A program made the position numbers and the translations under genes. Shown here one piece after another: positions 9,775 to 58,644 of a DNA stretch of 64,000 bases. Location: NCBI GenBank assembly GCA_946411735.1, contig CAMKFB010000001.1, positions 62,001 to 126,000 on the forward strand, in the 5' to 3' direction. Each line of letters opens with the position of its first letter. The stretch's first letter is position 1. Under the pieces are notes generated by a model. It was not told where the DNA came from. It did no database searches and saw only the letters and a list, made by a program, of their open reading frames with translations. The DNA comes from an uncultured Selenomonadales bacterium (lineage in GTDB: Bacteria; Bacillota; Negativicutes; Selenomonadales; Selenomonadaceae).

Positions 9775-9851
9775 GGGCGCCGCCGGCGCGGGGTGGGCAT
9801 GCTGTCAAAGGTTGGGCGCCGCGCTCGGGGGTGGGAGCGTCGGCGGCGCCC
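9775..9851 (+). repeat. 77-bp GC-rich dispersed repeat, copy A
   Basis: Starts GGGCGCCGCCGGCGC and ends GCGTCGGCGGCGCCC, near-perfect 15-base inverted ends. Inside are GGGTGGGCATGCTGTC, then TTGGGCGCCGCGCTCG, then GGGTGGGAGC. It lies between fabK2 and fabF and is preceded by a T run and CCCGCCCGCCCGCC. The other copies are at 21645-21721, 31232-31308 and, inverted, 50688-50765. Confidence 0.9.
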
Positions 9852-21458: not shown

Positions 21459-21773
21459 TCTCCCGCCCGCCCACCCAAAACCCCTACGGGGTTTCACCCC
21501 CTTAAAAAAAATTTTCAATGAGGAGCGCCGCTCCGCCCGAGCGTGGCGGGGGGACGCCGCCGGCGGTTGTCGCACCGTAGCGACGCGGGCTTGGAAAAAA
21601 TATTTTCTCCCGCCCACCCGCCCGAAAAAAATTTTTTCAATAAGGGGCGCCGCCGGCGCAGGGTGGGACCTCGGTCTCTGTTGGGCGCCGCACTCGGGGG
21701 GTGGGAGCGTCGGCGGCGCCCATAAATCCGTTGCCCAATCGGGTGGACTTAAAAAATTTTTGGAGTTGATGTT
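21459..21773. repeat. Composite repeat-rich spacer upstream of dxs
   Basis: 315 bases without a gene. In order: a CTCCCGCCCGCCCACCC block, a small AAACCCC/GGGGTTT hairpin, a run of A and T, a degenerate GC-rich segment with AGGAGCGCCGCTCC and GACGCCGCCGGCGG palindromes (about 21521-21590), a second CTCCCGCCCACCCGCCC block after an A/T run (21602-21624), then repeat copy B (21645-21721), and finally the dxs ribosome binding site. It looks like several insertions of one element family side by side. Confidence 0.7.
21645..21721 (+). repeat. 77-bp GC-rich dispersed repeat, copy B
   Basis: Same length, inverted ends and internal GGGTGGG blocks as copy A; the variable middle reads ACCTCGGTCTCTG instead of CATGCTGTCAAAG. 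An A/T run and a CTCCCGCCCACCCGCCC block lie to the left, as with copies A and D. Confidence 0.9.
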
Positions 21774-29768: not shown

Positions 29769-30998
29769 ATCTCGATAGAGCGGCTTGATCCAGCGCCAAC
29801 TGATGAGCGGGTCGTGGACGGTGACGTCGGTCGACACATTCGGGCGATACTCGAACGAGCGATCGGACGGCAGCGAAAATCGAACGATAAATTTTTGAAC
29901 GGGCTCGGGCTCGTGGAGCGACGACTCGTCGAGCTTGGAAGTATCGAAAGGCGCATCGACAACCTGAGTATAATCCTGAGTATTTTGAGTGTCCTGCGGA
30001 CCGCCGACGCCGTTGTAAGCGTTCGGCGTAATTTTTTCGATGACGGTGCCGTTGAACTGATGCCCGTCGATGTTGTAGGTGACGAGCTTGCCGAGGGCGA
30101 TGCGATAAAACTGATCCTCGGTGACCTCTGCCTCGAGCCAAAGGTTGGTGCCGTCGCCGACCTTGGCAACGGGCTCGCCGGCGACGACGTCCTGATTGGC
30201 GGCGACGTTATAGTAGATGGTGCCGCTGATGGGCGCGTAGACTTGGGTTTGAAGCGCCTCCTGTCGGGCGGTGTTGAGCGACATTTCGGCTTGCTTGATT
30301 GCAAGCTGAGCGCCCTCCAAAATTTCGGGGGGCGTGGGCTGAAACTGCTCGACATATTCCGTAACGTACTCCATTTCGGTCTCGACGACGGGCTCGGGCG
30401 TATACTCTTCGACGGTCGTGGTCGAATATGAATCGGCGCGCGCCGCCTCGTATTCGGCGACCGCCGCATCGCGCTGCACTCGACTGATCGCGCCCATCTC
30501 GTAAAGTTTTTCCATACGATTTTTGCGTTCCTCGAGCGCGGCTAAATTTCCTCCGCCGCCTCCGCCGTTTGATGTGACGCGGCGTTGCGGGGCTTGCGAG
30601 CGGACGACGGTTTTGGGGACGGCTTTTTGGACGGCGACCTTGACCATTTGCCCCTGCTCGAGCGTTGCGTAATTATCCTTGGCGGCTTGGACGGCTTGCT
30701 CGAGTTGCGCCAGCTGTTCTTCGGTGACGGCGACCTCGAGATTGGCGACGGCATCACCGGCGTCAACATTATCGCCGTCGGCGCGCGTGAGCTGTTTGAC
30801 CTTGCCGTTGGTGAGCACACGGATCGAAACGAGCGTGCCGGAAATTTTGGCGTCGCGAATGAGGAGCGTGTCCTCGACGTGCTGAACGTAGAAAGCGGCG
30901 GCTCCGAGCGCGGCGGCAATAATCAGCACGGCGACGAGACTGAACTTTATACAGCGGGCGATCTTTTTGGAGATGTCAACGGATTGCGTTTGAATCAC
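29721..30998 (-). CDS. HlyD-like membrane fusion/adaptor protein
   Basis: 425 residues from GTG at 30998. One membrane helix about 17-40 (FSLVAVLIIAAALGAAAFYV), a split lipoyl/barrel-sandwich domain (SGTLVSIRVLTNGKVKQLTRADGD early, VYAPISGTIYYNVAANQDVVAGE late) and between them a long helical region of about 170 residues interrupted by a run of Gly and a Glu/Pro/Tyr-rich section. Such adaptors bridge an inner-membrane transporter to the outer envelope; no transporter or outer-membrane channel is adjacent. Its GTGA overlap with the decarboxylase stop suggests coupled translation, an unusual pairing. Confidence 0.85.
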   Translation of the reverse strand: MIQTQSVDISKKIARCIKFSLVAVLIIAAALGAAAFYVQHVEDTLLIRDAKISGTLVSIRVLTNGKVKQLTRADGDNVDAGDAVANLEVAVTEEQLAQLEQAVQAAKDNYATLEQGQMVKVAVQKAVPKTVVRSQAPQRRVTSNGGGGGGNLAALEERKNRMEKLYEMGAISRVQRDAAVAEYEAARADSYSTTTVEEYTPEPVVETEMEYVTEYVEQFQPTPPEILEGAQLAIKQAEMSLNTARQEALQTQVYAPISGTIYYNVAANQDVVAGEPVAKVGDGTNLWLEAEVTEDQFYRIALGKLVTYNIDGHQFNGTVIEKITPNAYNGVGGPQDTQNTQDYTQVVDAPFDTSKLDESSLHEPEPVQKFIVRFSLPSDRSFEYRPNVSTDVTVHDPLISWRWIKPLYRDLSARIDRLLVRQHQL

Positions 30999-32428
30999 TC
31001 CTCTATGATTTTGACGGTTAGCAGTGAAGGATCGGCGGCGCCGACGAGGCGACGTCCGACGGCTAAATTTTCCTCGATTGACGCGATGAGCTCTGATGTG
31101 ATCTCTTCACCGGGGCATATCAACGGGATGCCGGGCGGGTAAAAAGTGATCTCTTCGGCGCTGATTTTTCCGATCGCTTGGCGGCGCTCGACGGTGGTCG
31201 TTGGTGCGTAAAATGCTTGCCGCGGACTCATGGGCGCCGCCGACGCGGGTGGGTATGCTGTCCTCAGTTGGGCGCTGTCGTTCGTGGGTGGGAGCGTCGA
31301 CGGCGCCCCATATTTCAACCCTTGGAGCGCGTTGATCAATCGGTCGGCGACGGTTTGATCGTCGGCGTATGTGATGAGGAATAAAACGTTGGCGGGATCG
31401 GACAGTTCGCATTGGATTTTCAAGCGATGCCGCAACACTTTTTCCGCCTCGAGCCCCGTCAGCCCGAGCCCGCGCACGTTGACGGTGATCTTGGTCGGAT
31501 CGAGCGACGGGCATTCAAAAAGTCGGAGCCCGCCGATTTTTTTTATTTCCGTTCTCAACTGTTGAGCGAGATCGACCGCGCGCCCGATCAATTTCGAGCC
31601 GCCTTCTTCCATTTGAAGTCGAGCGATATCGAGCGACGCCAACAGCAGATAATTGGGGCTGGTCGATTGCAGCATCGACGACACTCGACGGACGCGATCG
31701 AAGTCGATCTGCGCGGAGCGGATCATCAGCATCGAAGTTTGCGTGAGCGAGCCGAGCAGCTTGTGTGTCGACTGCGCGGACATGTCGGCGCCGGAGTCCA
31801 TTGCCGAAGGCGGGAGTCGATCGTCGAATTGCAAATGAGCGCCGTGCGCTTCGTCGATCAACAGCAGCATATTATGACGGTGCACGAGTTTTGCGATTGA
31901 CGGGAGATCGGCGGCGACACCGTAGTAATTCGGGGACGTAAGGATCAGCGCTCGAGCGTGGGGATATTTTTCGACGGCGCGCTCGACGGTCGAGAATGAG
32001 ACGTTGAGCGCGACATTGAAATCGGGATCGAAATCGGGCGCGAGATAAATCGGTCTGGCGCCGCTCAAAACGAGCGCGGAGTTGACGCATCGATGGGCGT
32101 TGCGCGGGACGAGGATTGTATCGCCTTCGCCGACGGTCGAGAGGATCATGGTTTGGACGGCGGCGGTGGTGCCGTTGATAAAAAAAATCGTATGATCGGC
32201 GTGCCACAGTCCGGCGGCAAGCCGTTGAGCCTCGTCGATGCATCCGCGCGGGTCGTGGAGGTCGTCGAGCTCATCCATCAAAGAGACTTCGCGTCGGAGT
32301 CCTTCGCTTGTGATCAAATCCTTCAGCAGTTGGTGAGCGCCGAGCCCTTGCTTATGCCCGGGCGTATGGAAGGCGAGCGCTCGATCGGCGGAATAAAATT
32401 TCATGGCGTCGGCGATTGGAGCGCTCAA
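30995..32428 (-). CDS. Orn/Lys/Arg decarboxylase-family PLP enzyme, carrying an in-frame repeat
   Basis: 477 residues from TTG at 32428 with GGAGGTG upstream. PLP-dependent, fold type I: FHTPGHKQG at the start, FFINGTTAAVQTMIL, the cofactor-contact DEAHGAHLQF, and the Schiff-base Lys in QSTHKLLGSLTQTSML. The C-terminal domain carries PRQAFYAPTTTVERRQAIG and ISAEEITFYPPGIPLICPGE. It decarboxylates a basic amino acid to a polyamine (cadaverine, putrescine or agmatine; the specificity is not readable). Residues about 374-399 (APSTLPPTNDSAQLRT and flanks) are encoded by repeat copy C and form an added Pro/Ser/Thr-rich linker just before the C-terminal domain; the frame is kept. Confidence 0.9.
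   Translation of the reverse strand: MSAPIADAMKFYSADRALAFHTPGHKQGLGAHQLLKDLITSEGLRREVSLMDELDDLHDPRGCIDEAQRLAAGLWHADHTIFFINGTTAAVQTMILSTVGEGDTILVPRNAHRCVNSALVLSGARPIYLAPDFDPDFNVALNVSFSTVERAVEKYPHARALILTSPNYYGVAADLPSIAKLVHRHNMLLLIDEAHGAHLQFDDRLPPSAMDSGADMSAQSTHKLLGSLTQTSMLMIRSAQIDFDRVRRVSSMLQSTSPNYLLLASLDIARLQMEEGGSKLIGRAVDLAQQLRTEIKKIGGLRLFECPSLDPTKITVNVRGLGLTGLEAEKVLRHRLKIQCELSDPANVLFLITYADDQTVADRLINALQGLKYGAPSTLPPTNDSAQLRTAYPPASAAPMSPRQAFYAPTTTVERRQAIGKISAEEITFYPPGIPLICPGEEITSELIASIEENLAVGRRLVGAADPSLLTVKIIEE
31232..31308 (+). repeat. 77-bp GC-rich dispersed repeat, copy C, inside a coding region
   Basis: Same length and layout as copies A and B, starting GGGCGCCGCCGACGC and ending GCGTCGACGGCGCCC. 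It lies within the decarboxylase gene, read on its minus strand without a stop codon, at the junction between the large PLP domain and the C-terminal domain. Confidence 0.9.
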
Positions 32429-32444
32429 TATATTTCACCTCCGA

Positions 32445-32474
32445 TTGACACGAAAGCCCCGCGTGTGCTAAAAT
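32445..32474 (+). promoter_or_regulatory. Promoter of the GIY-YIG endonuclease gene
   Basis: TTGACA, 18-base spacer, TAAAAT. It faces the decarboxylase promoter at 32522-32550, so the two leaders overlap in antisense. Confidence 0.65.
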
Positions 32475-32521
32475 CTGATCGACAAAAATCAACAAAGCAC
32501 GAGGCGGAGCCTTCGATCATG

Positions 32522-32550
32522 ATTATATGTATTCGTCTCGGGCTTGTCAA
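32522..32550 (-). promoter_or_regulatory. Consensus promoter of the decarboxylase operon
   Basis: Minus strand TTGACA, 17-base spacer, TATAAT: a perfect match. Predicted start near 32515, giving a leader of about 85 bases before the TTG at 32428. Confidence 0.8.
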
Positions 32551-32572
32551 TGAAAAAGCGGAGGCGGATAAC

Positions 32573-33532
32573 ATGACCGAAGACATTATGAGCAAGGCGA
32601 TGGTGATCTACGCGATCACGAATCGGCTCAACGGCAAGAAGTATGTCGGGCAGACGGCTCGACCGCTCGCGCGGCGCATCAATGAACATACGAACTCCGA
32701 TTATCCGATCGGGCACGCGATCAGAAAGTACGGCATCAACAATTTTGACGTTGAAGTCCTTGCCGAAGGCGCGACGATCGAAGAACTCTGCGAACTTGAG
32801 CGCCTGTACATTGCCGCGTTCCAAAGCAACGATCCCGAGCACGGTTACAATCTCACCGAGGGCGGCGAACACATTGCGGGCTGGAATCACACCGAGCAAG
32901 GGCGCGCAAACATTTCGGCGGCGCTCTCCGGCAAGCCCTTCACCGAAGAACACAAGGAGGCGCTTCGGCAGGCGAATCTCGGCGCCAACAATCCGATGTA
33001 CGGCAAGCATCTCACCGAGGAGCACAAAGCAAAACTCAGCGCCGCGCTCTCTGGATCGAATAACCCGCTCTACGGAATCCCGAGAACCGACGAAGTGAAG
33101 GCAAAAATATCGGCGACCAAGAAAAATAATCCGATCCGCGAGGAATCGATGGCAAAAATCAGAGCCGCCACAAGCATTCCTGTTCTTTGTGAGCAAACCG
33201 GCGTCATTTATCCGTCGGTCACCGAAGCGGCGAAGGCGATCGGCGTCAGTCGTCCGGCGGTTGCCTATGTTTGTCACGGCAAGACGAAGTCGATCAAAGG
33301 ATTGACTTTCAAGTTCGTCGATCCCGACAGGGCTCAAATGATTGGTGATCGGCTCAATGAAAATCGAGAATCCATGAATAATACTGCCGTCGTTTGCATC
33401 GAGACCGGCGTGGTTTATCCGTCGATGATCGCTGCCGCCGAGAGCATAGGATTGAAGCCGTCGAATATCAGTTCAGTTTGCACGGGGCGCTCAAAAACAG
33501 CGGGAGGCTATCACTGGCGGCGCCTCAAATAA
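32573..33532 (+). CDS. Free-standing GIY-YIG homing-type endonuclease with NUMOD repeats
   Basis: 319 residues from ATG at 32573 (GGAGG 8 bases upstream). GIY-YIG nuclease about 7-95: MVIYAITNRLNGKKYVGQT, the catalytic Arg in RPLARRINEH and LERLYIAAF. Then NUMOD3-type DNA-binding motifs (NHTEQGRANISAALSGKPF, LTEEHKAKLSAALSGSNNP and a third) and two NUMOD1-type helix-turn-helix units (GVIYPSVTEAAKAIGVSRPA and GVVYPSMIAAAESIGLKPSN). Proteins of this kind spread group I introns or themselves by cutting intronless or empty sites. No intron surrounds it; it sits between two intact genes. An open frame reaching back to 32093 is only antisense to the decarboxylase gene. Confidence 0.9.
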   Translation: MTEDIMSKAMVIYAITNRLNGKKYVGQTARPLARRINEHTNSDYPIGHAIRKYGINNFDVEVLAEGATIEELCELERLYIAAFQSNDPEHGYNLTEGGEHIAGWNHTEQGRANISAALSGKPFTEEHKEALRQANLGANNPMYGKHLTEEHKAKLSAALSGSNNPLYGIPRTDEVKAKISATKKNNPIREESMAKIRAATSIPVLCEQTGVIYPSVTEAAKAIGVSRPAVAYVCHGKTKSIKGLTFKFVDPDRAQMIGDRLNENRESMNNTAVVCIETGVVYPSMIAAAESIGLKPSNISSVCTGRSKTAGGYHWRRLK

Positions 33533-38518: not shown

Positions 38519-39787
38519 TCAACCGCCGCTGACGCTTTCGATGTCGCAATCGACCGCGCAACGTTCCGCCCAATTCGTCAGCACACGCTCCTTCACCAAT
38601 TCGCCGTCCGTCGAGGTCGCCTCCATCAACAGCACGAAGAATTGATTGCGCCCATGTTGCGTGACGCAATCGCTCCGACGCAAGGCATGCGCCAACACCT
38701 CAAGAAACGCCTCCGACTCCGACTCGTTCTCGAGCGTGAAGCGCATGAATTGAATGCCCTTCTGATAGTTGTCGACCAGCCGCGCCGCCAACCGATAGAT
38801 CACTTTAAAGCGGTCGAAGTCGACCACATACGCCCCCGCCGACTTGTTGCGCTCGCCCAAAATCATCTGCATGCCCGACAGGCTCCGCGCGGAGTCGGGC
38901 TCGACGCGATCGTGCTCATGATAGAAGGCGCAACCATGCTTGCCGTTTTGCTTGACGGTGTAAAGCGCCTTATCCGCCTTGCGACCAAGCTGCTCAAAAT
39001 TATTGCCCTCGTCAGGAACAAAGATCGCGCCGATCGACACTCCCAACGGAATGTTCATGTCGGCACCCATCAGACGGCGCGCCTCCTCAAGCAACATTCG
39101 ATTGATCTGCTCGACTTTATGAGCGATCTCGTTCTCGTCGCGCAGCCCCGTGCAGAAGGCAATGAACTCGTCGCCGCCAACCCGCCCGACTACATCATTC
39201 GAGCGCAGCACGCGGCGGAGGATATCGGCGAAGGCAATCAAAATCTTATCGCCCATGTTGTGACCGTAGAGATCGTTGACCAGCTTGAAACTGTCGAGAT
39301 CGATCATCAACAGCGCGCCCGAAGCGGTCGAACACAATTTTGTGAGCTCACGTTGTGAGGCGGATTTGTTGAGCAGCCCCGTCATCGGATCGAGCGTCGC
39401 CGCTTGACGCAAGCCCGTTATCTTGTCGAGATTTTCAATGATGTTGTCGACCCGCCGTCGAAGGAGATCGGGCTTGAGCGGCTTGCGAATGTAATCCGCC
39501 GCGCCGATCTCGAAACCGCGGCTCTCGCTCTCATCAGACTCGTCGGCAGTCATGAACATTATCGGGACGGGCTCGTCGCTGAGCTCCTGCAGCCGTCGAT
39601 GCAGAGTGTAACCGTCCATCTCCGGCATCAGCAGATCGGACAAAACCATGTCGGGGCGCTCCGCGCGGAACAATTCGATCGCCTCCGCGCCCGAGGTCGC
39701 GCCGATGATCTCATACGTCTTTGAAAGGATGCGCGTCGCCATCTTGAGCATCATCTTTTCGTCGTCAACGATCAATATCTTTTTCAT
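38519..39787 (-). CDS. Response regulator with REC, GGDEF and a degenerate second GGDEF domain
   Basis: 422 residues from ATG at 39787 (GGAGGTG upstream). Receiver about 1-118 with phospho-acceptor in LSDLLMPEMDG; diguanylate cyclase domain about 135-295 with an exact GGDEF at about 204-208 and an inhibitory RxxD site (RSND) five residues before it, so it should make cyclic di-GMP with product inhibition. Residues about 315-415 look like a second GGDEF fold in which GGDEF became GRNQF while RRSD is kept at the same spacing, a candidate c-di-GMP-binding output domain. It is the last gene of the signalling operon; ATGA overlap with the kinase upstream. Confidence 0.88.
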   Translation of the reverse strand: MKKILIVDDEKMMLKMATRILSKTYEIIGATSGAEAIELFRAERPDMVLSDLLMPEMDGYTLHRRLQELSDEPVPIMFMTADESDESESRGFEIGAADYIRKPLKPDLLRRRVDNIIENLDKITGLRQAATLDPMTGLLNKSASQRELTKLCSTASGALLMIDLDSFKLVNDLYGHNMGDKILIAFADILRRVLRSNDVVGRVGGDEFIAFCTGLRDENEIAHKVEQINRMLLEEARRLMGADMNIPLGVSIGAIFVPDEGNNFEQLGRKADKALYTVKQNGKHGCAFYHEHDRVEPDSARSLSGMQMILGERNKSAGAYVVDFDRFKVIYRLAARLVDNYQKGIQFMRFTLENESESEAFLEVLAHALRRSDCVTQHGRNQFFVLLMEATSTDGELVKERVLTNWAERCAVDCDIESVSGG

Positions 39788-42700
39788 GATGTCACCTCCA
39801 ACCATTTTGCTATATCCGATCGAACCGCCGCGTAGTTCTCGAGCAGCGCGCCGTGATTGTTTTTGATCGTTTCGAGATCGCCGTCCTTGGCCGCCGCCTC
39901 CAGCGCCTTCGCCTTCTCACTCAGTTCGGTCGCCCCGACGATCAACGATGTCGACTTGAGCCCGTGCACCGATACTTTATAAGCGTTCACGTCGCCGTCC
40001 GACAAGAATTTCGTCAGCTCCTCCGACTTGTCATCGTCGATGAAATCATTCAACATCTCGATAAAAAATTCCTTGCTGTCCATGCAAGAGTTGAGCGCCA
40101 CCTCGAGATCGAGCCACGGACACAGCTCCGCCAATAAATTTTTCTCCGCCTCCGAAAAGCTGTCGTCATCAACCGTCGCCTCCGCCGGCGCTTCTTTATT
40201 TTCCATCGACGGTTCCTCCTTCGGCAAGTATTTTTCGAGAATCGCCTCAAGTTCGTCGGTGATAATCGGCTTTGATAGATAATCTGAAAACGATGCTTTC
40301 ATGTAATACTCTCGCGCGCCCGAGACCGCGTTCGCCGTCAGCGCGATTACCGTTGTCGACTCGTCGATCAAATGCTCCGCGCGGAGTGTTTTGAGCGTCT
40401 CGATCCCATCCGGCGCCGGCATCATGTGGTCGAGGAAGATTATATCATATTTTTTCTTCCGAACCAGCTTCAAACACTCGAGCCCGCTCTGCGCCAAATC
40501 CGGCACGATTTCATTCGCCTTCAACAGCCCGCGCATCACCTTCAAATTCATGCCGTTGTCGTCGACCACCATCACACGCGCGCGCGGCGCCTTGAGATAT
40601 TGCCGCGCCAAATTCATTTGCGCCCGCTCAAAATGATGTTCGCCGTAATTTCCGATCGGCATCTGATCGATGATGCGCTGATCGAGCGCGAATGAGAACG
40701 TCGAGCCCTCACCGTATACGCTCGAGACCTGCAGCTCCGAGCCCATCATCGTCAACAATCGCTGTACGATCGAGATGCCCAGCCCCGTGCCTTCGATGTT
40801 GCGATTTTTCTCCTCGTCGATGCGCTGAAAGGACTGAAACAGTTTGTCCATATCCTCCGGCTTGATGCCGATGCCCGTGTCGCGCACCGAGATTCGCAGC
40901 TTGATCGTGTCGGCGTCGTGCTTTTCGGTGTTGATCAGCAGCGCCACCGACCCTTCGCGCGTGTATTTGACGGCATTGGTGAGGATGTTCGTCACCACCT
41001 GCTTGATTCGAACGTCGTCGCCGAACAGACTTTTCGGCAGCGTCGGATCGATCTCCGTCTTGAATTCCAAGCCCTTCTTTCGAGCGCGCCCCGAAATCAT
41101 GTTGACAAGGTCGTCGATCATCATCGTGGTGTCGTAGCGCACCGGCACGATTTTCATTTTCCCTTCCTCGAGTTTCGAGAAGTCGAGGATGCTGTTTATG
41201 AGCGTCAGCAGCGTATGACCCGCGCTTTGAATGTTGAGCGCGTAATCCCTGATATCCCGATCGTCGCTCTCGCGCAAGATCATTTCGTTCATGCCGAGCA
41301 CGGCGTTGAGCGGCGTTCTGATCTCGTGAGACATTTGAGCGAAGAATTGAGACTTCGCTTGACCCGCCGCAACCGCCGTCGCCGCTGACTCGCGCAGTTG
41401 ATGATTGACGTCCTGCTGCCAACCGAGAAGCCGATTGATCAGAATGTTGACGATGAAAATGCCCACGAGCAGGAAAATCGAGAAGGCAATCCCGAGCGTA
41501 AAGATGTTGCCGTAGATGTTCCACCAATTGTTGGCGACGATGACGGTGAATTGCGAGGCGGCGTTCTTTTTGGCAAGGCAAGCGACGCGCGTGCCGGTGT
41601 AATCGGTGGTGCGGATGACCTCATCATCGGCGTAGGCGCGCTGATATTCGGTGCCGTTGACGTCGGTCATTCGCTCGACGGACATCTCGTAATCCTTGTT
41701 CGGATGGTTGATGATGATGCCGTTGCGGTCGACCAGGAAGGCGTAGCCGTTTCGACTGTAGCTTTCGCCGAGCACGGTGATGAGCCGATCGAGATAGAAA
41801 TCGATGCCGAAAATCCCGAGGAACTCGTCGTTGGGACCGTAGATGACCTGCGATATCGTCACGCAATAGACGCCGGTCTGGTCGTCGTAATACGGCGCCG
41901 ATACGCTGAAGCCGTGCTCGGAGCGCTCGGTTTCGATGTACCACGGGCGCTGCTCGACGCGCCAGCCCGGAGGACCCTCCCAACCGCTGTTCATAATTAG
42001 CGGATGTTCTTTATAAGGATTGGCCATGTAGCAGGCGGATATCTCGGGATAATTCTTCGCAAGGTCGTTGAGGAGCTTGACGGCGGATTCGTAATCGTCC
42101 ATGATCCGCGGGCGCTCGGCGATCAGGCTGGTGAACATGCTCAAGATGCTCCGCTGCTTTTCTATCCAATTCGACAGTTGATATTCGTAGGTGTCGACTT
42201 CGCGATTCATCTTCGTGTCGCCCCAATTGATGGTCGTGTTGATGCACAGCCACATGCTCACGACCATCGAAAAAGTCAGCACCAGGATGATGTAGGTGCG
42301 CGTCGAGCGGCTGATTTGAGAGACTTCGACGCCGCCGCTTTTTTGGTCGTCGCGCGCGGAGCTTTTATCGAAGGCGTTGATGCTCGACATCGAAAACAGA
42401 TTGTAGAGCATCTCGGAGAGTTTGCGGGCGGAGTCGTGGACTTGAGCGGCGTTCTCGATCGGATCGACATCATGAGAGAACACTTCGGCGTTCGACAGTT
42501 TCAAGATGCGATTGAGCGGATCGCGCAACTCCCTCGACATGTTGGAGAGGAAATTGTCTTTGACTTTAAGCGCCTCTTCGGCCTTGAGGCGGTTCTTGAC
42601 GCCGTTGAGATAAAAGCCGACGATGGTCACGAGCATCAACAGGCTGATGAAGGTCGTAATGAACAGATGAACGTAGCTGTCCTTATAAAGCGCGCGGTCG

Positions 42701-43536
42701 TCGACGCTGAGGATCATATACCAACCGTTCTCCGTCCGACTGCTGAAGATGGTGTGGTCGGCGCCGTCGATCTCGGCGACAAAGCTGTCGTGATTGGTTT
42801 TATTGAGGACGCGCTCGAGAATGGGCTCGTACTCGGGGAGCTTGCGCGAAACCTTTTCGCCGACCAGCGACATATCGGAGTAGCCGATGATCATGCCGTA
42901 TTTGTTGACGATTAGGGCGGTGCGATCGCTGTCGGAGTTCATTCGGAGGATCGACTCCTGCACGTCGGAGAAGTTGAAGTCGAGCCCGACGACGGTTCTG
43001 CGATCGGGCAAAACCATCGACATCGTAAAGCACATCTCGCCGGAGGCGGCATCAATATACGGCTCGGTGGTAAAAACTTCGTTGGGATTTTCGAGCGCGC
43101 CGCGGAACCAACTGCGCTCGGTGGCGTGATAGTCATCGGGCATGTTGAAATCGGGGATGATAGACCAATCGGGCGTGGCGCTGTAGACGTTGAAGCAGGT
43201 ACCGTTGGTGAGCAGCTTTTGATCGTGTTTGCGCTGATGGATGAACTCGACCAGCTGTTGATGCGGCGCGCCGGAGGTCAATATTTTTTGGACGTCCTCG
43301 GCGGTCTGCGTGGTGGCGTCCTCGGCTTTCGAAAGCACGTCTTGAAAATCCGCGCGGATCGATTCCAGTTGCATTCGACCGATCTCCTCGGTCTGATTGG
43401 AAGTCATTTGGAAGATTAATTTGACGTTGAGCCCGATGACGAGCAGAAACATGGCGGCGATAACGATGATGATGGTGAAGTCGTCGGATTTGCTGTTGCG
43501 GAGAATTTTCCATTCCGCCATAACTTTGTTTTGCAT
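39784..43536 (-). CDS. Giant hybrid histidine kinase: two dCache sensors, pseudo-HisKA, HisKA-HATPase-REC-HPt
   Basis: 1250 residues. TM1 about 20-42; first dCache about 48-295 with DYHATERSWFRGALENP and EPYIDAASGEM; TM2 about 300-323; a HisKA-like helix pair (about 325-390) reading NFLSNMSRELRDPLNRIL with Arg at about 335 where a kinase has His; TM3 about 425-447; second dCache about 450-690 with GPPGWRVEQRPWYIE; TM4; true HisKA with FFAQMSHEIRTPLNAVLG (His about 737); HATPase with DTGIGI and GTGLGISIV; receiver with the Asp in IIFLDHMMPAPDG (about 1037); HPt with VHGLKSTS (His about 1191). It could run a full phosphorelay by itself to the REC-GGDEF protein downstream. Its start overlaps the stop of the upstream paralogue by one base. 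Confidence 0.9.
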   Translation of the reverse strand: MQNKVMAEWKILRNSKSDDFTIIIVIAAMFLLVIGLNVKLIFQMTSNQTEEIGRMQLESIRADFQDVLSKAEDATTQTAEDVQKILTSGAPHQQLVEFIHQRKHDQKLLTNGTCFNVYSATPDWSIIPDFNMPDDYHATERSWFRGALENPNEVFTTEPYIDAASGEMCFTMSMVLPDRRTVVGLDFNFSDVQESILRMNSDSDRTALIVNKYGMIIGYSDMSLVGEKVSRKLPEYEPILERVLNKTNHDSFVAEIDGADHTIFSSRTENGWYMILSVDDRALYKDSYVHLFITTFISLLMLVTIVGFYLNGVKNRLKAEEALKVKDNFLSNMSRELRDPLNRILKLSNAEVFSHDVDPIENAAQVHDSARKLSEMLYNLFSMSSINAFDKSSARDDQKSGGVEVSQISRSTRTYIILVLTFSMVVSMWLCINTTINWGDTKMNREVDTYEYQLSNWIEKQRSILSMFTSLIAERPRIMDDYESAVKLLNDLAKNYPEISACYMANPYKEHPLIMNSGWEGPPGWRVEQRPWYIETERSEHGFSVSAPYYDDQTGVYCVTISQVIYGPNDEFLGIFGIDFYLDRLITVLGESYSRNGYAFLVDRNGIIINHPNKDYEMSVERMTDVNGTEYQRAYADDEVIRTTDYTGTRVACLAKKNAASQFTVIVANNWWNIYGNIFTLGIAFSIFLLVGIFIVNILINRLLGWQQDVNHQLRESAATAVAAGQAKSQFFAQMSHEIRTPLNAVLGMNEMILRESDDRDIRDYALNIQSAGHTLLTLINSILDFSKLEEGKMKIVPVRYDTTMMIDDLVNMISGRARKKGLEFKTEIDPTLPKSLFGDDVRIKQVVTNILTNAVKYTREGSVALLINTEKHDADTIKLRISVRDTGIGIKPEDMDKLFQSFQRIDEEKNRNIEGTGLGISIVQRLLTMMGSELQVSSVYGEGSTFSFALDQRIIDQMPIGNYGEHHFERAQMNLARQYLKAPRARVMVVDDNGMNLKVMRGLLKANEIVPDLAQSGLECLKLVRKKKYDIIFLDHMMPAPDGIETLKTLRAEHLIDESTTVIALTANAVSGAREYYMKASFSDYLSKPIITDELEAILEKYLPKEEPSMENKEAPAEATVDDDSFSEAEKNLLAELCPWLDLEVALNSCMDSKEFFIEMLNDFIDDDKSEELTKFLSDGDVNAYKVSVHGLKSTSLIVGATELSEKAKALEAAAKDGDLETIKNNHGALLENYAAVRSDIAKWLEVTS

Positions 43537-46500
43537 CAAACGCCCTCCTCCGAAATATTTTTTCTCCGTTTGTCCTTCAGTAAATATTTTTCGAGGATCG
43601 CCTCAAGCGCCGCGGTGATAATCGGCTTTGGCAAATAATCGGAAAATGATGCTGCCAAATATTGTTCGCGTGCGCCGCTGATTGCATTCGCCGTCAGTGC
43701 GATCACCGCCGTCGACTCGTCGATCAAATGCTCCGCGCGGAGGATTCTGAGCGTCTCGAGCCCGTCCGGCGCCGGCATCATGTGATCGAGGAAGATTATA
43801 TCATATTTTTTTTGTCGCACGAGTTCCAAACACTTCGCCCCGCTGTCGACCAAGTCCGGCACAATCTCATTGACCTTCAACAGCCCGCGCATCACCTTTA
43901 AATTCATTTCGTTGTCGTCGACCACCATCACGCGAGCATGCGGCGCCTTCAAATATTTTTGCTCCGCGTACATCTGCGACCGCTCGAAATGATTTTCGCC
44001 GTAATTTCCGATCGGCTCCCGATCAAGAACGTCCTGCTCGATCGAAAATGAGAACGTCGATCCTTCGCCGTATGTCGACGACACTTCCAACTCCGAGCCC
44101 ATCATCGCCAACAATTTTTGCACGATCGGAATCCCCAGCCCCGTCCCCTCGATCGAACGGTTACGTTGCTCGTCAAGTCGTTCGAACGCGCCCGACAGTC
44201 GCGGAATATCCTCCGCCTTGATCCCGATGCCCGTGTCGTGCACCTCGAACCGCAGACGGATTTTGTTCCCCGAAGTCTTGTTGAAAGTGACGGTGAGTTT
44301 GACGGCGCCGCGCTCTGTGTACTTGGCCGCGTTCGACAGCAGATTCGTCACGATCTGTTTGATGCGGACGTCGTCGCCGAACAGACTTTTCGGCAGCGTC
44401 GGATCGATCTCCGTTTGAAATTCCAAACCCTTCTTCCGCGCGCGCGCCGAGATCATATTTATCAGATCGTCGATCATCAGTATCGTGTCGTAGCGCACCG
44501 GCACGATCCTCATCTTGCCCTCTTCGATCTTGGAAAAATCGAGGATGCTGTTGATGAGCGTCAGCAGCGTGTGACCCGCGCTTTGAATGTTGAGCGCGTA
44601 GTCCCTGATGTCGAGCTCATCGCTCTCGCGCAAGATCATTTCGTTCATACCGAGCACGGCATTTAGCGGCGTTCTGATCTCGTGAGACATCTGCGCGAAG
44701 AATTGAGATTTCGCCTCCAATGCGGAGCTTGCCGCGTTCACCGCCTCCTGCAATTGGTGATTGACGTCCTGCTGCCACCTCAACAGCCGATTGATCAGCA
44801 TCCTGATGGCGATGATGCAGACGAGCAGAAGCAGTCCGAACATAGCGCCGAGCGAGATGATGCTGCCGTAGATGTTCCACCAATCGTTGGTGACCATAAC
44901 GGTGAATTGCGACACCTCATTCTTTTTGGCAAGGCAAGCAATCAGATTGCCGGTGTAATCGCGCGTGCTCACCACTTCCTTATCGCGGTACGCATTTTTG
45001 TATTCGGTGCTGAGAACATTCGTCGAGCGCTTGACGGTCAGCTCGTAATTTTTATTCGGATGATTGATGATGACGCCGTTGCGATCGACCAGGAAGGCGT
45101 AACCGTTCCGACTGTAGCTCTCGCCGAGCAAGGCGATGAGCCGATCGATGTAAAAGTCGATGCCGAAAATCCCGAGAAACTCGTTATTTCTGCCGTAGAC
45201 GACCTGCGACATCGTCACGCAATACAGCCCCGTCTGCGCGTCGTAATACGGCGCCGACACGTTGAACCCGTCGAGCGCCCGCGAAGTCTCCAGATACCAT
45301 TCGCGCTTCTCGACCCTCCAGCCCGGCGGTCCCTCCCAACCGTTGTTCATTATGACGGTGTGCTTTTTATAAGGATTCGCCATATAGCAGACGGATATCT
45401 CGGGGTAATTGGCGGCGATGTCGTCGAGAAATCTGACGGCGCTGTCGTAATCCGCCATTATCTCGGGGCGCTCGGCGATCAGATTCGCGAACATGCTCAA
45501 GATGCTCCGCTGCTTCGCGATCCAATACGACAGTTTCTGTTCGTACAGGTCGACCTCGCGGTGCATCTTCGTGTCGCCCCAACTGATGGTCGTGTTGATG
45601 CACAGCCCCATGCTCGCGGTCATTGTGACGATCAGCACCATGATGATCCCGACGCGCGTGAAGTGACTTGCTTTCGACAAGCCGACGCCGCGTTTTGCTT
45701 TCGCTGCTGTCGCGACCTGTTTATCGGCGGCAGTGATGGTCGAGAATGAAAACAGGTTGTCGAGCATATCCGAAAGGAGCAACGCCGACTCGCGTACTTG
45801 AGCGGCGACCTCTGCCGGATCGGCGTCCCGCTTGCTCGACTCGATGTGCGACAACTTCAGAATGCGATTGAGCGGCTCGCGCAATTCTCTCGACAGATTT
45901 GACAAGAATGTATCTTTGACGCGGAGCGCCTTTTCGGCTCGGAGACGATTTTTGACGCCGTTGAGATAAAAGCCGACGATGACCACGAGCATCAACAAAC
46001 TGATGAGCGTCGTCAAAAAAAGATGCGCGTAGCTGTCCTTATAAAGCGCGCGGTCGTCGACGCTGAGGATCATATACCAGCCGTTTTTTGTTCGACTGCT
46101 GAAGATCGTGTGGTCGGCGCCGTCGATCTCGGCGACGAAACTGTTTTTATCGTTTTGATTGATGACGCGCTCGAGAATCGGCTTGTACTCGGGGAGCTTG
46201 CCGGAAACTGTTTCGCCGACCAGCGACATATCGGAGTGACCGATGATCATGCCGAGCTTGTTGACGATTAGAGCGGTGTGATCGTTGTCGGCGCTCATTC
46301 GGAGGATTGAGGTCTGCACGTCGGCAAAATTAAAATCGAGTCCGACCACGGTCTCGCGATCGGGCAACGCCACCGACATACTGAAGCACATATTGCCGGA
46401 GGCGGCGTCGATATACGGCTCGGTGATGAAAACCTCGTCGGGGTTTTCGAGCGCGCCCTTATACCAATTGCGCTCGGGCGCGTGATAATCGTTGGGCATA

Positions 46501-46892
46501 TCGAAATCAGGGATGATGGTCCAGCGCTTGTCGGAGCCGTAGACGTTGATGCAGGTGCCGTTGGTCGACAGCTTTTGATCGTGTTTGCGCCGGTTGAAGA
46601 AGGCGACGAGCTCTTGTTGAGAAGCGCCGGAGCGGATCATTCGATTGACGTCGTCGGCGGTTTGAAGGGTCGTCTCTTCGGCTCTCGTGATGACATTTTG
46701 AAAATCCGCGCGGATCGATTCCAGTTGCATTCGACCGATCTCCTCGGTTCGAGCGGCAGTCATTTGAAAGATCAGCTCGACGTTGAGCCCGATGACGAAC
46801 AGAAACAGGATAGCGATGACGATGATGATGTTGAAGTCGCCGGCTCTGCCGCTTTTCAGTAATTGCCACTCCGCTGCAATTTTGCCACGCAT
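43536..46892 (-). CDS. Giant hybrid histidine kinase, paralogue without HPt
   Basis: 1118 residues from ATG at 46892 (AAGGTGGG 6 bases upstream; the ATG at 46898 is too close to it). Same order as the downstream gene: TM, dCache, TM, HisKA-like segment with FLSNLSRELREPLNRIL (Arg at about 334), TM, dCache, TM, HisKA (MSHEIRTPLNAVLG, His about 737), HATPase, receiver (IIFLDHMMPAPDG). The chain ends after the receiver, with a basic KDKRRKN tail and no HPt domain. It probably uses the HPt of its neighbour in trans. The two proteins align nearly without gaps, so this is a tandem duplication. Confidence 0.9.
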   Translation of the reverse strand: MRGKIAAEWQLLKSGRAGDFNIIIVIAILFLFVIGLNVELIFQMTAARTEEIGRMQLESIRADFQNVITRAEETTLQTADDVNRMIRSGASQQELVAFFNRRKHDQKLSTNGTCINVYGSDKRWTIIPDFDMPNDYHAPERNWYKGALENPDEVFITEPYIDAASGNMCFSMSVALPDRETVVGLDFNFADVQTSILRMSADNDHTALIVNKLGMIIGHSDMSLVGETVSGKLPEYKPILERVINQNDKNSFVAEIDGADHTIFSSRTKNGWYMILSVDDRALYKDSYAHLFLTTLISLLMLVVIVGFYLNGVKNRLRAEKALRVKDTFLSNLSRELREPLNRILKLSHIESSKRDADPAEVAAQVRESALLLSDMLDNLFSFSTITAADKQVATAAKAKRGVGLSKASHFTRVGIIMVLIVTMTASMGLCINTTISWGDTKMHREVDLYEQKLSYWIAKQRSILSMFANLIAERPEIMADYDSAVRFLDDIAANYPEISVCYMANPYKKHTVIMNNGWEGPPGWRVEKREWYLETSRALDGFNVSAPYYDAQTGLYCVTMSQVVYGRNNEFLGIFGIDFYIDRLIALLGESYSRNGYAFLVDRNGVIINHPNKNYELTVKRSTNVLSTEYKNAYRDKEVVSTRDYTGNLIACLAKKNEVSQFTVMVTNDWWNIYGSIISLGAMFGLLLLVCIIAIRMLINRLLRWQQDVNHQLQEAVNAASSALEAKSQFFAQMSHEIRTPLNAVLGMNEMILRESDELDIRDYALNIQSAGHTLLTLINSILDFSKIEEGKMRIVPVRYDTILMIDDLINMISARARKKGLEFQTEIDPTLPKSLFGDDVRIKQIVTNLLSNAAKYTERGAVKLTVTFNKTSGNKIRLRFEVHDTGIGIKAEDIPRLSGAFERLDEQRNRSIEGTGLGIPIVQKLLAMMGSELEVSSTYGEGSTFSFSIEQDVLDREPIGNYGENHFERSQMYAEQKYLKAPHARVMVVDDNEMNLKVMRGLLKVNEIVPDLVDSGAKCLELVRQKKYDIIFLDHMMPAPDGLETLRILRAEHLIDESTAVIALTANAISGAREQYLAASFSDYLPKPIITAALEAILEKYLLKDKRRKNISEEGV

Positions 46893-46912
46893 CAACATCC
46901 CACCTTGTGTGA

Positions 46913-50687: not shown

Positions 50688-50765
50688 GGGCGCCGCCGAC
50701 GCTCCCACCCATCGAGCGCGGCGCCCAACGAAGGACAGCATGCCCACCCTGCGTCGGCAGCGCCC
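50688..50765 (-). repeat. 78-bp GC-rich dispersed repeat, copy D (inverted)
   Basis: On the minus strand it starts GGGCGCTGCCGACGC and ends GCGTCGGCGGCGCCC, with GGGTGGGCATGCTGTCC in the middle. It occupies the gatB-rph spacer. A CTCCCGCCCGCCCTCCC block and a T run lie on its left side in its own orientation (50795-50820), and a GCGGC-TTA-GCCGC hairpin on the other side. Confidence 0.9.
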
Positions 50766-55921: not shown

Positions 55922-56434
55922 TTGAAAAAAACACATAAGACGAACGCCGCGCGGATTCTCGATCGGCTGTCGATCGCCTACGAGATCAAGACTTATGAGG
56001 TCGACGAAAGCGATCTGTCGGCGGAGCATGTCGCGGTGACGGCGGGGCTGGACATCAAAACGATATTTAAGACTCTGGTCGGGCGGGGCGATCGGACGGG
56101 GATCATCATGGCGGTGATCAACGGCGCCGACGAGCTTGATCTCAAAGCGTTGGCTCGAGCGTCGGGAAATAAATCGGTCGAGATGATCGCGCTCAAAGAA
56201 CTGCTTCCGACGACGGGCTATGTCAGAGGCGGCTGCAGTCCGCTCGGCGCAAAAAAAAATTTCCCCGTGTACGTCGATCGGAAGGCGACCACGCTCGAGA
56301 AAATCTCAATCAGCGCGGGCATGCGCGGGCAACAACTCATCCTTGCGCCCGCCGATCTCATCAGAGCCGCCAACGCTGTCGTCGCCGATATAATTACCGA
56401 GCGATGCGTTGAGCAGAATCAGCCAACGCTTTGA
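55922..56434 (+). CDS. ybaK: YbaK/EbsC-type aminoacyl-tRNA deacylase
   Basis: 170 residues from TTG at 55922. Family that hydrolyses Cys-tRNA-Pro formed by prolyl-tRNA synthetase. TNAARILDRLSIAYEIKTYE at the start, KTLVGRGDRTGIIMAVI, the conserved Lys-containing segment SGNKSVEMIALKEL, GYVRGGCSPLGAKK and the C-terminal ISAGMRGQQLILAPADLI match well. Its last 41 bases overlap the convergent DUF1566-like gene. Transcription should start inside the terminator-like element upstream. Confidence 0.93.
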   Translation: MKKTHKTNAARILDRLSIAYEIKTYEVDESDLSAEHVAVTAGLDIKTIFKTLVGRGDRTGIIMAVINGADELDLKALARASGNKSVEMIALKELLPTTGYVRGGCSPLGAKKNFPVYVDRKATTLEKISISAGMRGQQLILAPADLIRAANAVVADIITERCVEQNQPTL

Positions 56435-57770
56435 ATTGAGCGATCTGATCCTCGAGGTCGGTGATATACGCCAGCAGATCGGTTTTTTGGAAAAAGCTGA
56501 TTGGCGACGGAACAGGTCGTCTGATGGTAGGATACAGCGGCGGATCATACAAGCGACGATACAATTCGCCGATCTCATAATCATCGAAGATCGGATCAAG
56601 TTGGTTGTCGATGAAAATGTCCAACGTCGACTTCGGAGTGCTCGGTACATATGCGTGACTGCAAGGGATCACGAACGCATCCTCATTGCTGACGGCACCG
56701 TCGGTCTGATCCAAATCAATGCAGCCCGATTGCGTGCACCAGTGGCGCTTCCATCTGATCCTCCGACTTCCGCGGAGGAGAGGAAAGGTTCCATCCTCAA
56801 CCAACGTCAAAATCTCCTCGACGGTCGGCAACGTCCAATCCAGACAGTTTCCTAACCAGTGCGCATTCTTCATATCCAGCATTTCTTTGACTTCGGCATA
56901 GTTGTCGGCAGAGGAATACGGAACCTTATTGCTGTTCTTGCCGTACGGAAAAGATTTGAGGTCGATCCAAAGCAGGTTTGTATTTCTATCGAAGATCACA
57001 GTCCGCGTATTATTGAATTGGAACCAACGTTGGTGTTTTATCGCGTCGAGAATTCTGTCTTTGTTGGCGGCGATGAGCGCGAGATGCTTCTTCAACTTGT
57101 CATGCCGACGGATCAAATCGTCATCGATTTCGTACTTGTCAAGGCTCGGACGGTATTCGGGTTCGGCAATCTCGACAGGCATCGAATTAACCGGTTTGCC
57201 GGGAACAAGCGACGGAGGGGAAGCCGTCGGGGGATTATACATGCGACGGTAAAGGTTGTTAATCTCGTAATCATCGAAGATGGGATCGAGCTGATTGTCG
57301 ATAAAAATATCCAGCGTCGACTTCGGAGCGCTCGGCACATACGCGTGACTGCACGGGATCGCAAACGCATCGTCTTTACTGACGGCACCGTCGGTCTGCT
57401 CCAAATCGATGCAGCCCGATTGCGTGCACCAGTTGTTCTTCCATCTGATCCGTCGACTCTCGCCCTTGAGGAGCGGAAATGTTTTATCGTCGACCAATTT
57501 CAGAAGCTCGTCGACGGTCGGCAGACTCCAATCCAAACAGTTGCCGAACCAGTGCGCATTCTTTACGCGTAACATTTTTTTGACTTCGGCGTAATTCTCG
57601 GCGGCAGAATAAGGCATCGTATTGGCGTTCTTGCCGTAGGGGAATGTCGAGGAATCCGCCCACAGCAGATTAGTATCGCGGTCGAAGATCACGTTCTTCT
57701 TATTCTTGAATCGAAACCAACGCTGTCGTCCGATCGCCTCGAGAATTTTCTTGTTGTCGTCGATGGTCAT
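56394..57770 (-). CDS. Cytoplasmic protein with two tandem Lcl/DUF1566-like repeats
   Basis: 458 residues from ATG at 57770 (GGAGGAG upstream). Two copies of a unit of about 180 residues (about 10-190 and 250-430) separated by a Pro-rich linker and a charged helix. Each unit shows VIFDR-x-TNLLW, FPYGKN, NAHW-x-GNCLDW, LPTV-x-E, RRIRWK, WCTQSGCIDL, QTDGAVS, IPCSHAYVPS and KSTLDIFIDNQLDPIFDDYE. The W, LPT and late repeat pattern is that of DUF1566 (Legionella collagen-like protein C-terminal type), a lectin-like fold. Each unit has three Cys. There is no signal peptide and the C-terminus is a short coiled coil. Function unknown. Divergent from pyrK; overlaps the ybaK-like gene by 41 bases. Confidence 0.78.
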   Translation of the reverse strand: MTIDDNKKILEAIGRQRWFRFKNKKNVIFDRDTNLLWADSSTFPYGKNANTMPYSAAENYAEVKKMLRVKNAHWFGNCLDWSLPTVDELLKLVDDKTFPLLKGESRRIRWKNNWCTQSGCIDLEQTDGAVSKDDAFAIPCSHAYVPSAPKSTLDIFIDNQLDPIFDDYEINNLYRRMYNPPTASPPSLVPGKPVNSMPVEIAEPEYRPSLDKYEIDDDLIRRHDKLKKHLALIAANKDRILDAIKHQRWFQFNNTRTVIFDRNTNLLWIDLKSFPYGKNSNKVPYSSADNYAEVKEMLDMKNAHWLGNCLDWTLPTVEEILTLVEDGTFPLLRGSRRIRWKRHWCTQSGCIDLDQTDGAVSNEDAFVIPCSHAYVPSTPKSTLDIFIDNQLDPIFDDYEIGELYRRLYDPPLYPTIRRPVPSPISFFQKTDLLAYITDLEDQIAQFKALADSAQRIAR

Positions 57771-57894
57771 TGAATCACTCCTCCGATTGATGATGTTGAA
57801 ACTTTCGACGGCGCCGCGCATTTTCCTGCCGCCATTGACATTGCCGCCGTCAACCTTTAACATATCATCACCGGCAAGATTGGGAGGCGTTGCG

Positions 57895-58644
57895 ATGAAA
57901 AAAATTTTTGAGGCACACATCATATCAAACGAGTGCGCTGTCGATGACGTTTATAAACTGACGGTCGGGTTCGACGGTCGTCTCGAGGCTCGACCGGGGC
58001 AATTCGTCCAGTTGAGATTGCCCTCGAATGAATTTACTTTGCGCCGTCCGCTCGGGATCGCCGCTCTCGACGGCGTTCGATTGACGATGTTCTATCGGCT
58101 CATCGGGCGCGGCACGAAATTTCTTGCGACCGTCGGCAGCGGCACGAAGATCGATCTGATCGCCCCGCTCGGCAACGGTTTCAATGTGAGCGACGGCGAA
58201 AAAATTTTATTGGTCGGCGGCGGAGTCGGACTGGCGCCGTTGCTTTTCTCCGCGCGGAGCTTCAACGATGTCGATGTGCTGATCGGAGGCAAAACGGCGT
58301 CGGAAGCGGAGCTTTGGAGTCGGGAGTTTAACGGCGCGGTCGATGAAATGTTCATCACTACCGACGACGGCTCGGCAGGAGTCAAGGGCTTCGTGAGTGA
58401 TCTCCTGCCCGAGGTGCTCTCGAAAAAAAATTACGACGCGGTACTCGTGTGCGGTCCGCCGATCATGATGAAGAATGTCGCCGCGCTCGTGCTCGAAAAG
58501 AATATTCGTTGCGAAGTGTCGATGGAAGGGCGAATGGCGTGCGGATTGGGCGCGTGTCTGTCGTGCTCGCTCGAGACCGTCGACGGTCGCCGCAAGGTTT
58601 GTAAGGACGGACCGATCTTTGACGCTCGAAAAATTATTTGGTAG
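57895..58644 (+). CDS. pyrK: Dihydroorotate dehydrogenase electron-transfer subunit
   Basis: 249 residues from ATG at 57895 (GGGAGG upstream). It carries electrons from PyrD to NAD using FAD and a [2Fe-2S] cluster. FAD domain with LRRPLGIAA, nucleotide domain with LLVGGGVGLAPLLF, and the cluster ligands in CGLGACLSCSLE plus a final Cys in RKVCKDGPIF. pyrD follows, but a toxin-antitoxin pair lies between the two. Confidence 0.95.
   Translation: MKKIFEAHIISNECAVDDVYKLTVGFDGRLEARPGQFVQLRLPSNEFTLRRPLGIAALDGVRLTMFYRLIGRGTKFLATVGSGTKIDLIAPLGNGFNVSDGEKILLVGGGVGLAPLLFSARSFNDVDVLIGGKTASEAELWSREFNGAVDEMFITTDDGSAGVKGFVSDLLPEVLSKKNYDAVLVCGPPIMMKNVAALVLEKNIRCEVSMEGRMACGLGACLSCSLETVDGRRKVCKDGPIFDARKIIW

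Follow-up and report, generated by a model that had tools for sequence, protein, structure and literature searches.

Among short repeats of bacterial genomes, the MITEs (Correia/NEMIS, RUP, ERIC and similar) are 70-300 nt long, often lie beside genes and have no coding capacity of their own. Palindromic elements of Rickettsia (RPEs) and Wolbachia are known to lie in frame inside genes; they are short, dispersed and lineage-specific, and their in-frame copies occur in unrelated metabolic genes (PMC10969869, PMC3733652). REPs within ORFs have been reported from several other bacteria as well, and the GTAG- and CGTC-tagged REP/BIME families are palindromic and found mostly in co-directional or convergent gaps, sometimes in ORFs (PMC3733652).

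The repeat family described here, from an uncultured Selenomonadales bacterium, resembles each of these kinds in part. Its 77-nt element with 15-nt inverted ends falls within the MITE criteria of 70-300 nt and 15-30 nt, and it shares with MITEs the lack of its own coding capacity and the frequent position beside genes. As with RPEs, in-frame copies are found in several unrelated genes (an Orn/Lys/Arg decarboxylase, carB and an FAD dehydrogenase), and as with REP/BIMEs, a 40-nt hairpin form of the element occurs alone. Sequence and size probably set it apart from RPEs, and nearly half of RPEs are genic vs. 3 of the 93 copies here. The genic copies also use two frames, one per element strand, and one of the events was a replacement and not a gain. 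Unlike REP/BIMEs, the core measures 77 nt, and its ends carry neither a GTAG nor a CGTC tag. A search with Y1_Tnp (PF01797), the only model used, found no RAYT transposase in the 93% complete assembly, whereas control genomes were positive; the enzyme could be missing from a draft of 135 contigs. Not every REP family needs a RAYT in the same genome. Of the other marks of MITEs, no parent insertion sequence was identified in the PF01797 search, and no clear target-site duplication was seen, the empty sites in the closest relative being too diverged for comparison. Because the REP end tags and a RAYT are absent and the genic share is far below that of RPEs, we filed the repeat as a new family of the REP/RPE/MITE-like kind, neither RPE nor REP.

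The window, that is, the whole 64-kb stretch of DNA analyzed, contains four copies of the 77-78-nt repeat. Copies at 9775..9851 (minus strand, upstream of fabF), 21645..21721 (minus) and 50688..50765 (plus) are intergenic, as indicated by repeat matches, the covariance model and coding calls. The copy at 31232..31308 (minus) lies in a decarboxylase-family gene (30995..32428, minus) and was identified from repeat matches, the ORF reading, the covariance model and an inverted repeat read directly. An outer A/T-rich plus CCCGCCC arm, of the kind also carried into carB, is exemplified at 21603..21640 (strand not assigned) beside an intergenic copy. An Rfam search of the window matched a single tRNA and returned no family for the repeat.

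Other features of the window were recorded alongside. A GIY-YIG/NUMOD3 gene with a group I intron endonuclease family match (32465-33532, plus) stands head to head with the decarboxylase gene. Two neighboring large genes (39784-43539 and 43536-46898, both minus) are tandem duplicates by appearance, with about 80% DNA identity and a spacing of 3356 nt; the former is a hybrid sensor histidine kinase (NCBIfam). A 509-residue ORF (56394-57923, minus), for which NCBIfam gave no match, is internally duplicated over about 690 nt. The palindrome TCCGCGCGGA was counted 436 times in 603 kb vs. 12 in simulated sequence (both strands counted, each site twice), a behavior reminiscent of cyanobacterial HIP1. 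It occupies 24 places in the window (e.g., 9868, 27447 and 38884), 20 of them coding.

We built a covariance model on 30 copies and searched it against the 2.4 Mb genome, a draft of 135 contigs, 93% complete, in which no 16S rRNA gene was detected. At a threshold of E<1e-6, we identified 93 matches, most of them full length. The core is 77 nt long with 15-nt inverted ends (GGGCGCCGCCGACGC...GCGTCGGCGGCGCCC), and nearly all of the copies begin with GGGCGCC and end with GGCGCCC. With a G+C content of 68-82%, the element has a predicted fold of -43 kcal/mol (z -4.1), in which a long end-to-end stem competes with a 5' hairpin, GGGCGCC(G/A)C...G(C/T)GGCGCCC. At position 10 of the hairpin, G-C changes to A-T together with its partner in 22 copies, and the end-to-end pair there is broken in 23; this covariation may reflect one inherited subfamily change. 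The hairpin alone, about 40 nt long, had two occurrences in the part of the genome examined and one in the closest relative (G060). An AT-rich, nearly C-free box at -7 to -1 stands before most copies, and A/T-rich plus CCCGCCC arms flank many of the intergenic ones. Partial copies form local arrays in the genome (G000; contigs C18:31716-32026, C26:20240-20416 and C49:6069-6411), which look as if they grew between genes by tandem duplication of element halves. One exact-pattern match in public genomes, in a Rubritepida MAG (L061), lacked the 3' inverted end and was rejected as chance.

Copies are concentrated between genes. According to a codon-usage HMM, coding sequence makes up about 88% of the window and 91% of eight further 19-25 kb stretches, yet the HMM placed 89 of the 93 copies in mostly non-coding sequence. 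The gaps that hold copies are co-directional in 57 cases, convergent in 19 and divergent in 4. The HMM missed the copy in the FAD dehydrogenase, a case that rests on homology, and so undercounts in-frame genic copies. Reading long open frames through the copies added two real genes to the decarboxylase, carB and the FAD-dependent dehydrogenase; frames through C75, C29, C18, C4, C13 and others were judged from their sequences to be shadow frames or upstream extensions. The preliminary description had asked whether other copies lie in genes and in which frame: the three genic copies are all in frame. About 97% of copies are intergenic in a genome whose DNA is about 90% coding, and the genic count falls far short of what random placement would give (P about 1e-90). 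We infer from this deficit that genic copies are rare as most insertions in genes are harmful and lost by selection.

The gain in carB is clean, the G000 protein having 62 additional residues (186 nt). The stretch measures 117 residues vs. 55 in all 19 aligned genus orthologues, including G060, whose site is clean and empty; E. coli CarB has no counterpart to the segment either. The insert includes both the core, here translated from its other strand, and a tail, TTTGATCCCGCCCACCCACCC, with matches in the tails of intergenic copies, so a larger unit moved. At carB, an imperfect AAACTT(T)CTTC pair is all that was seen of a target-site duplication. The FAD-dependent dehydrogenase (PF21688) is matched over its whole length by its G060 counterpart, and its insert, a core with an additional 3' half, sits in a variable linker of 74 aa vs. 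52 in G060, a net +22 aa. The net changes in the three genic cases (186, 66 and 9 nt) are each divisible by three, as expected of survivors. Judged by these alignments, the element is able to add new protein segments, since the 62 residues gained by carB include a copy. The proposal that it does so, made originally for the decarboxylase, holds for carB, with its copy-bearing gain, and fails for the decarboxylase itself, where a linker was replaced with a net gain of 9 nt.

The family is essentially restricted to this lineage. Within a genus set of 66 genomes, this one included, none of the 65 others gave a DNA match to the core, and a covariance-model search of seven relatives found no full element, the sole match being the 40-nt half in G060. 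In the part of G060 examined, most alignable orthologous sites hold 10-41 nt vs. 150-360 nt with a copy in G000; at one exception, C7:7967, the G060 site is the longer of the two and is occupied by another repeat family. G060 carries an intergenic repeat family of its own (GGGCGAGCCGCC...GGGAGGCGGGCGCCC; L205 5081-6079) where G000 has the 77-nt element. The empty sites show that the family expanded, to about 93 copies, after the split from the closest sampled relative, and they support both a mobile family and the original statement that the element moves. With neither a REP-type transposase nor a clear target-site duplication at hand, it is from dispersal and empty sites that transposition was deduced.

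Transposition might not have been involved, the family spreading between genes by recombination and template switching between repeats, as other intergenic mosaic repeats do, and genic copies arising as by-products. The absence of a Y1/RAYT transposase, the half-copies in tandem and the local arrays seen at several sites, and the replacement-like event in the decarboxylase, with ATGGGG or GGGTTG shared at its left edge, would all suit such a process. However, clean gains where G060 has no repeat, above all in carB, require a step that creates new insertion sites, and we regard spread by recombination as possible but rather unlikely.

The preliminary description had read 31232-31308 as a repeat copy set in frame in the decarboxylase gene, and the copy is indeed a 77-nt member of the dispersed family, scoring 85.6 bits against the covariance model. 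A DNA search of its own genome found dozens of other places about 79-90% identical to it (1e-10 to 1e-25), the best off-site match reaching 90% identity. It ends in a 15-nt terminal inverted repeat (GGGCGCCGTCGACGC / GCGTCGGCGGCGCCC). Judged by base frequencies at -1 to -8, its 5' flank (31309..31321, minus; GGGTTGAAATATG on the element strand) is similar to the AT-rich box found ahead of most copies; it also resembles the flank of C26:20340, the closest copy (88% over 90 nt). As described, about 26 residues are read across the copy on the gene's strand with no stop: ORF 30995-32428 is translated as ...NALQGLKY-GAPSTLPPTNDSAQLRTAYPPASAAP-MSPRQAFY... (TAYPPASAAPMSPR is an example of the peptide predicted across the element in element-carrying proteins). 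The catalytic STHK motif is invariant and the downstream YPPGIP segment intact, so the gene is whole and in frame. Pfam places OKR_DC_1 at residues 4-306 and the C-terminal domain at 390-446, which bears out the position of the copy between the PLP and C-terminal domains. The parallel with RPEs also holds, as a lineage-specific palindrome sits in frame at an interdomain linker and two more copies are genic and in frame.

Homologues had been expected to run straight from this linker into the SPREAF-like segment, and this did not prove correct. The element supplies 26 of the 28 linker residues in this decarboxylase, and every aligned orthologue from the genus has a variable linker, about 21-25 residues long, at the same point. 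The G060 protein, 73% identical, has 25 (SSMGKATGGRAINRRSTAPLIIEPI), most other relatives have about 21-24, and residues are present at this position in the structurally characterized S. aureus homologue (2x3l) too. A clean insertion that added about 26 residues where homologues have none would explain the sharp repeat edges and the kept frame. It is highly improbable given the linker in every aligned orthologue and a net change of only +3 aa (+9 nt) relative to G060, and 77 nt alone would disrupt the reading frame. Similarity between the G060 linker and the element was not detectable (p = 0.42 and 0.26 relative to shuffles), and an older insertion shared by both was rejected, as alignment scores were no better than those of shuffles. 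The same 26 residues are found in no aligned relative, so the refuting observation named in the preliminary description was not made. At the level of sequence, the alignments show that the element now joins the PLP domain to the C-terminal domain, where an older linker, poorly conserved and of nearly equal length, once stood.

The reverse origin, an ancestral linker from which the gene seeded the repeat family, could draw on the good score of the decarboxylase copy against the family model, but is very improbable: the element is absent from the linker of G060 and other orthologues, about 90 copies with subfamilies are intergenic, and the half-form in G060 lies outside the gene. Chance similarity or low-complexity sequence, suggested by a G+C of 68-82%, can practically be dismissed in view of 1e-10 to 1e-25 matches at dozens of places and 52 occurrences of GGGCGCCGCCGACGC in 603 kb vs. 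none in simulated sequence.

Replacement of the old linker by the element, the reading that we prefer, could have followed two courses. No intermediate with both the old linker and the element was seen among the aligned orthologues, the nearest of which is only 73% identical. We lean slightly toward an insertion after which the old linker would have been deleted under selection for length and frame. Replacement in a single event, whether through template switching or through ectopic gene conversion with another copy as the donor, is a real though lesser possibility; C26:20340 shares 90 nt with the decarboxylase copy, including a GGGTTG-like left flank, which hints at microhomology. In an AlphaFold model made from 39 orthologues, mean pLDDT is 62 for residues 371-380 and 50 for 381-390, and the domains around are better predicted. 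These low values, which may reflect disorder or a lack of data and are no proof of a spacer, are consistent with a flexible linker, and the encoded residues most likely act solely as a neutral flexible spacer.

Taken as a whole, we consider it highly probable that a lineage-specific family of mobile palindromes, mostly intergenic, has left surviving in-frame copies in linkers and loops and has replaced the decarboxylase linker. The element is a short mobile palindrome with a 77-nt core, 15-nt inverted ends, a roughly 40-nt 5' hairpin and frequent A/T-rich plus CCCGCCC-type flanks, and would have been transposed or copied by some enzyme that the PF01797 search did not find. Most landings in genes would be lost by selection, leaving copies almost only between genes. 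Landings in frame within interdomain or loop segments, as in the decarboxylase, carB and the FAD dehydrogenase, survived, the insert being tolerated since it presumably encodes a flexible spacer. In the decarboxylase, the element has taken over from the old linker, probably by insertion and deletion or by one-step template switching or gene conversion. A further idea, which we hold to be rather doubtful, is that the palindrome invades genes with a translation-permissive sequence and is able to add to or substitute protein linkers, whose sequences mobile DNA would thereby overwrite. All six frames are open in 39 of the 93 copies vs. about 17 in shuffles. Frame -1, in which two of the three genic insertions are read, is free of stops in 92 of the 93; such an excess may be mere inheritance from one ancestral sequence.

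In this lineage, mobile non-coding DNA has turned into protein sequence in metabolic enzymes, with a sister genome that shows the empty sites. Two outcomes occur in one genome, a gain of 62 residues in CarB vs. a linker swap of nearly the same length in the decarboxylase, and with both side by side the tolerance of such inserts is directly testable.
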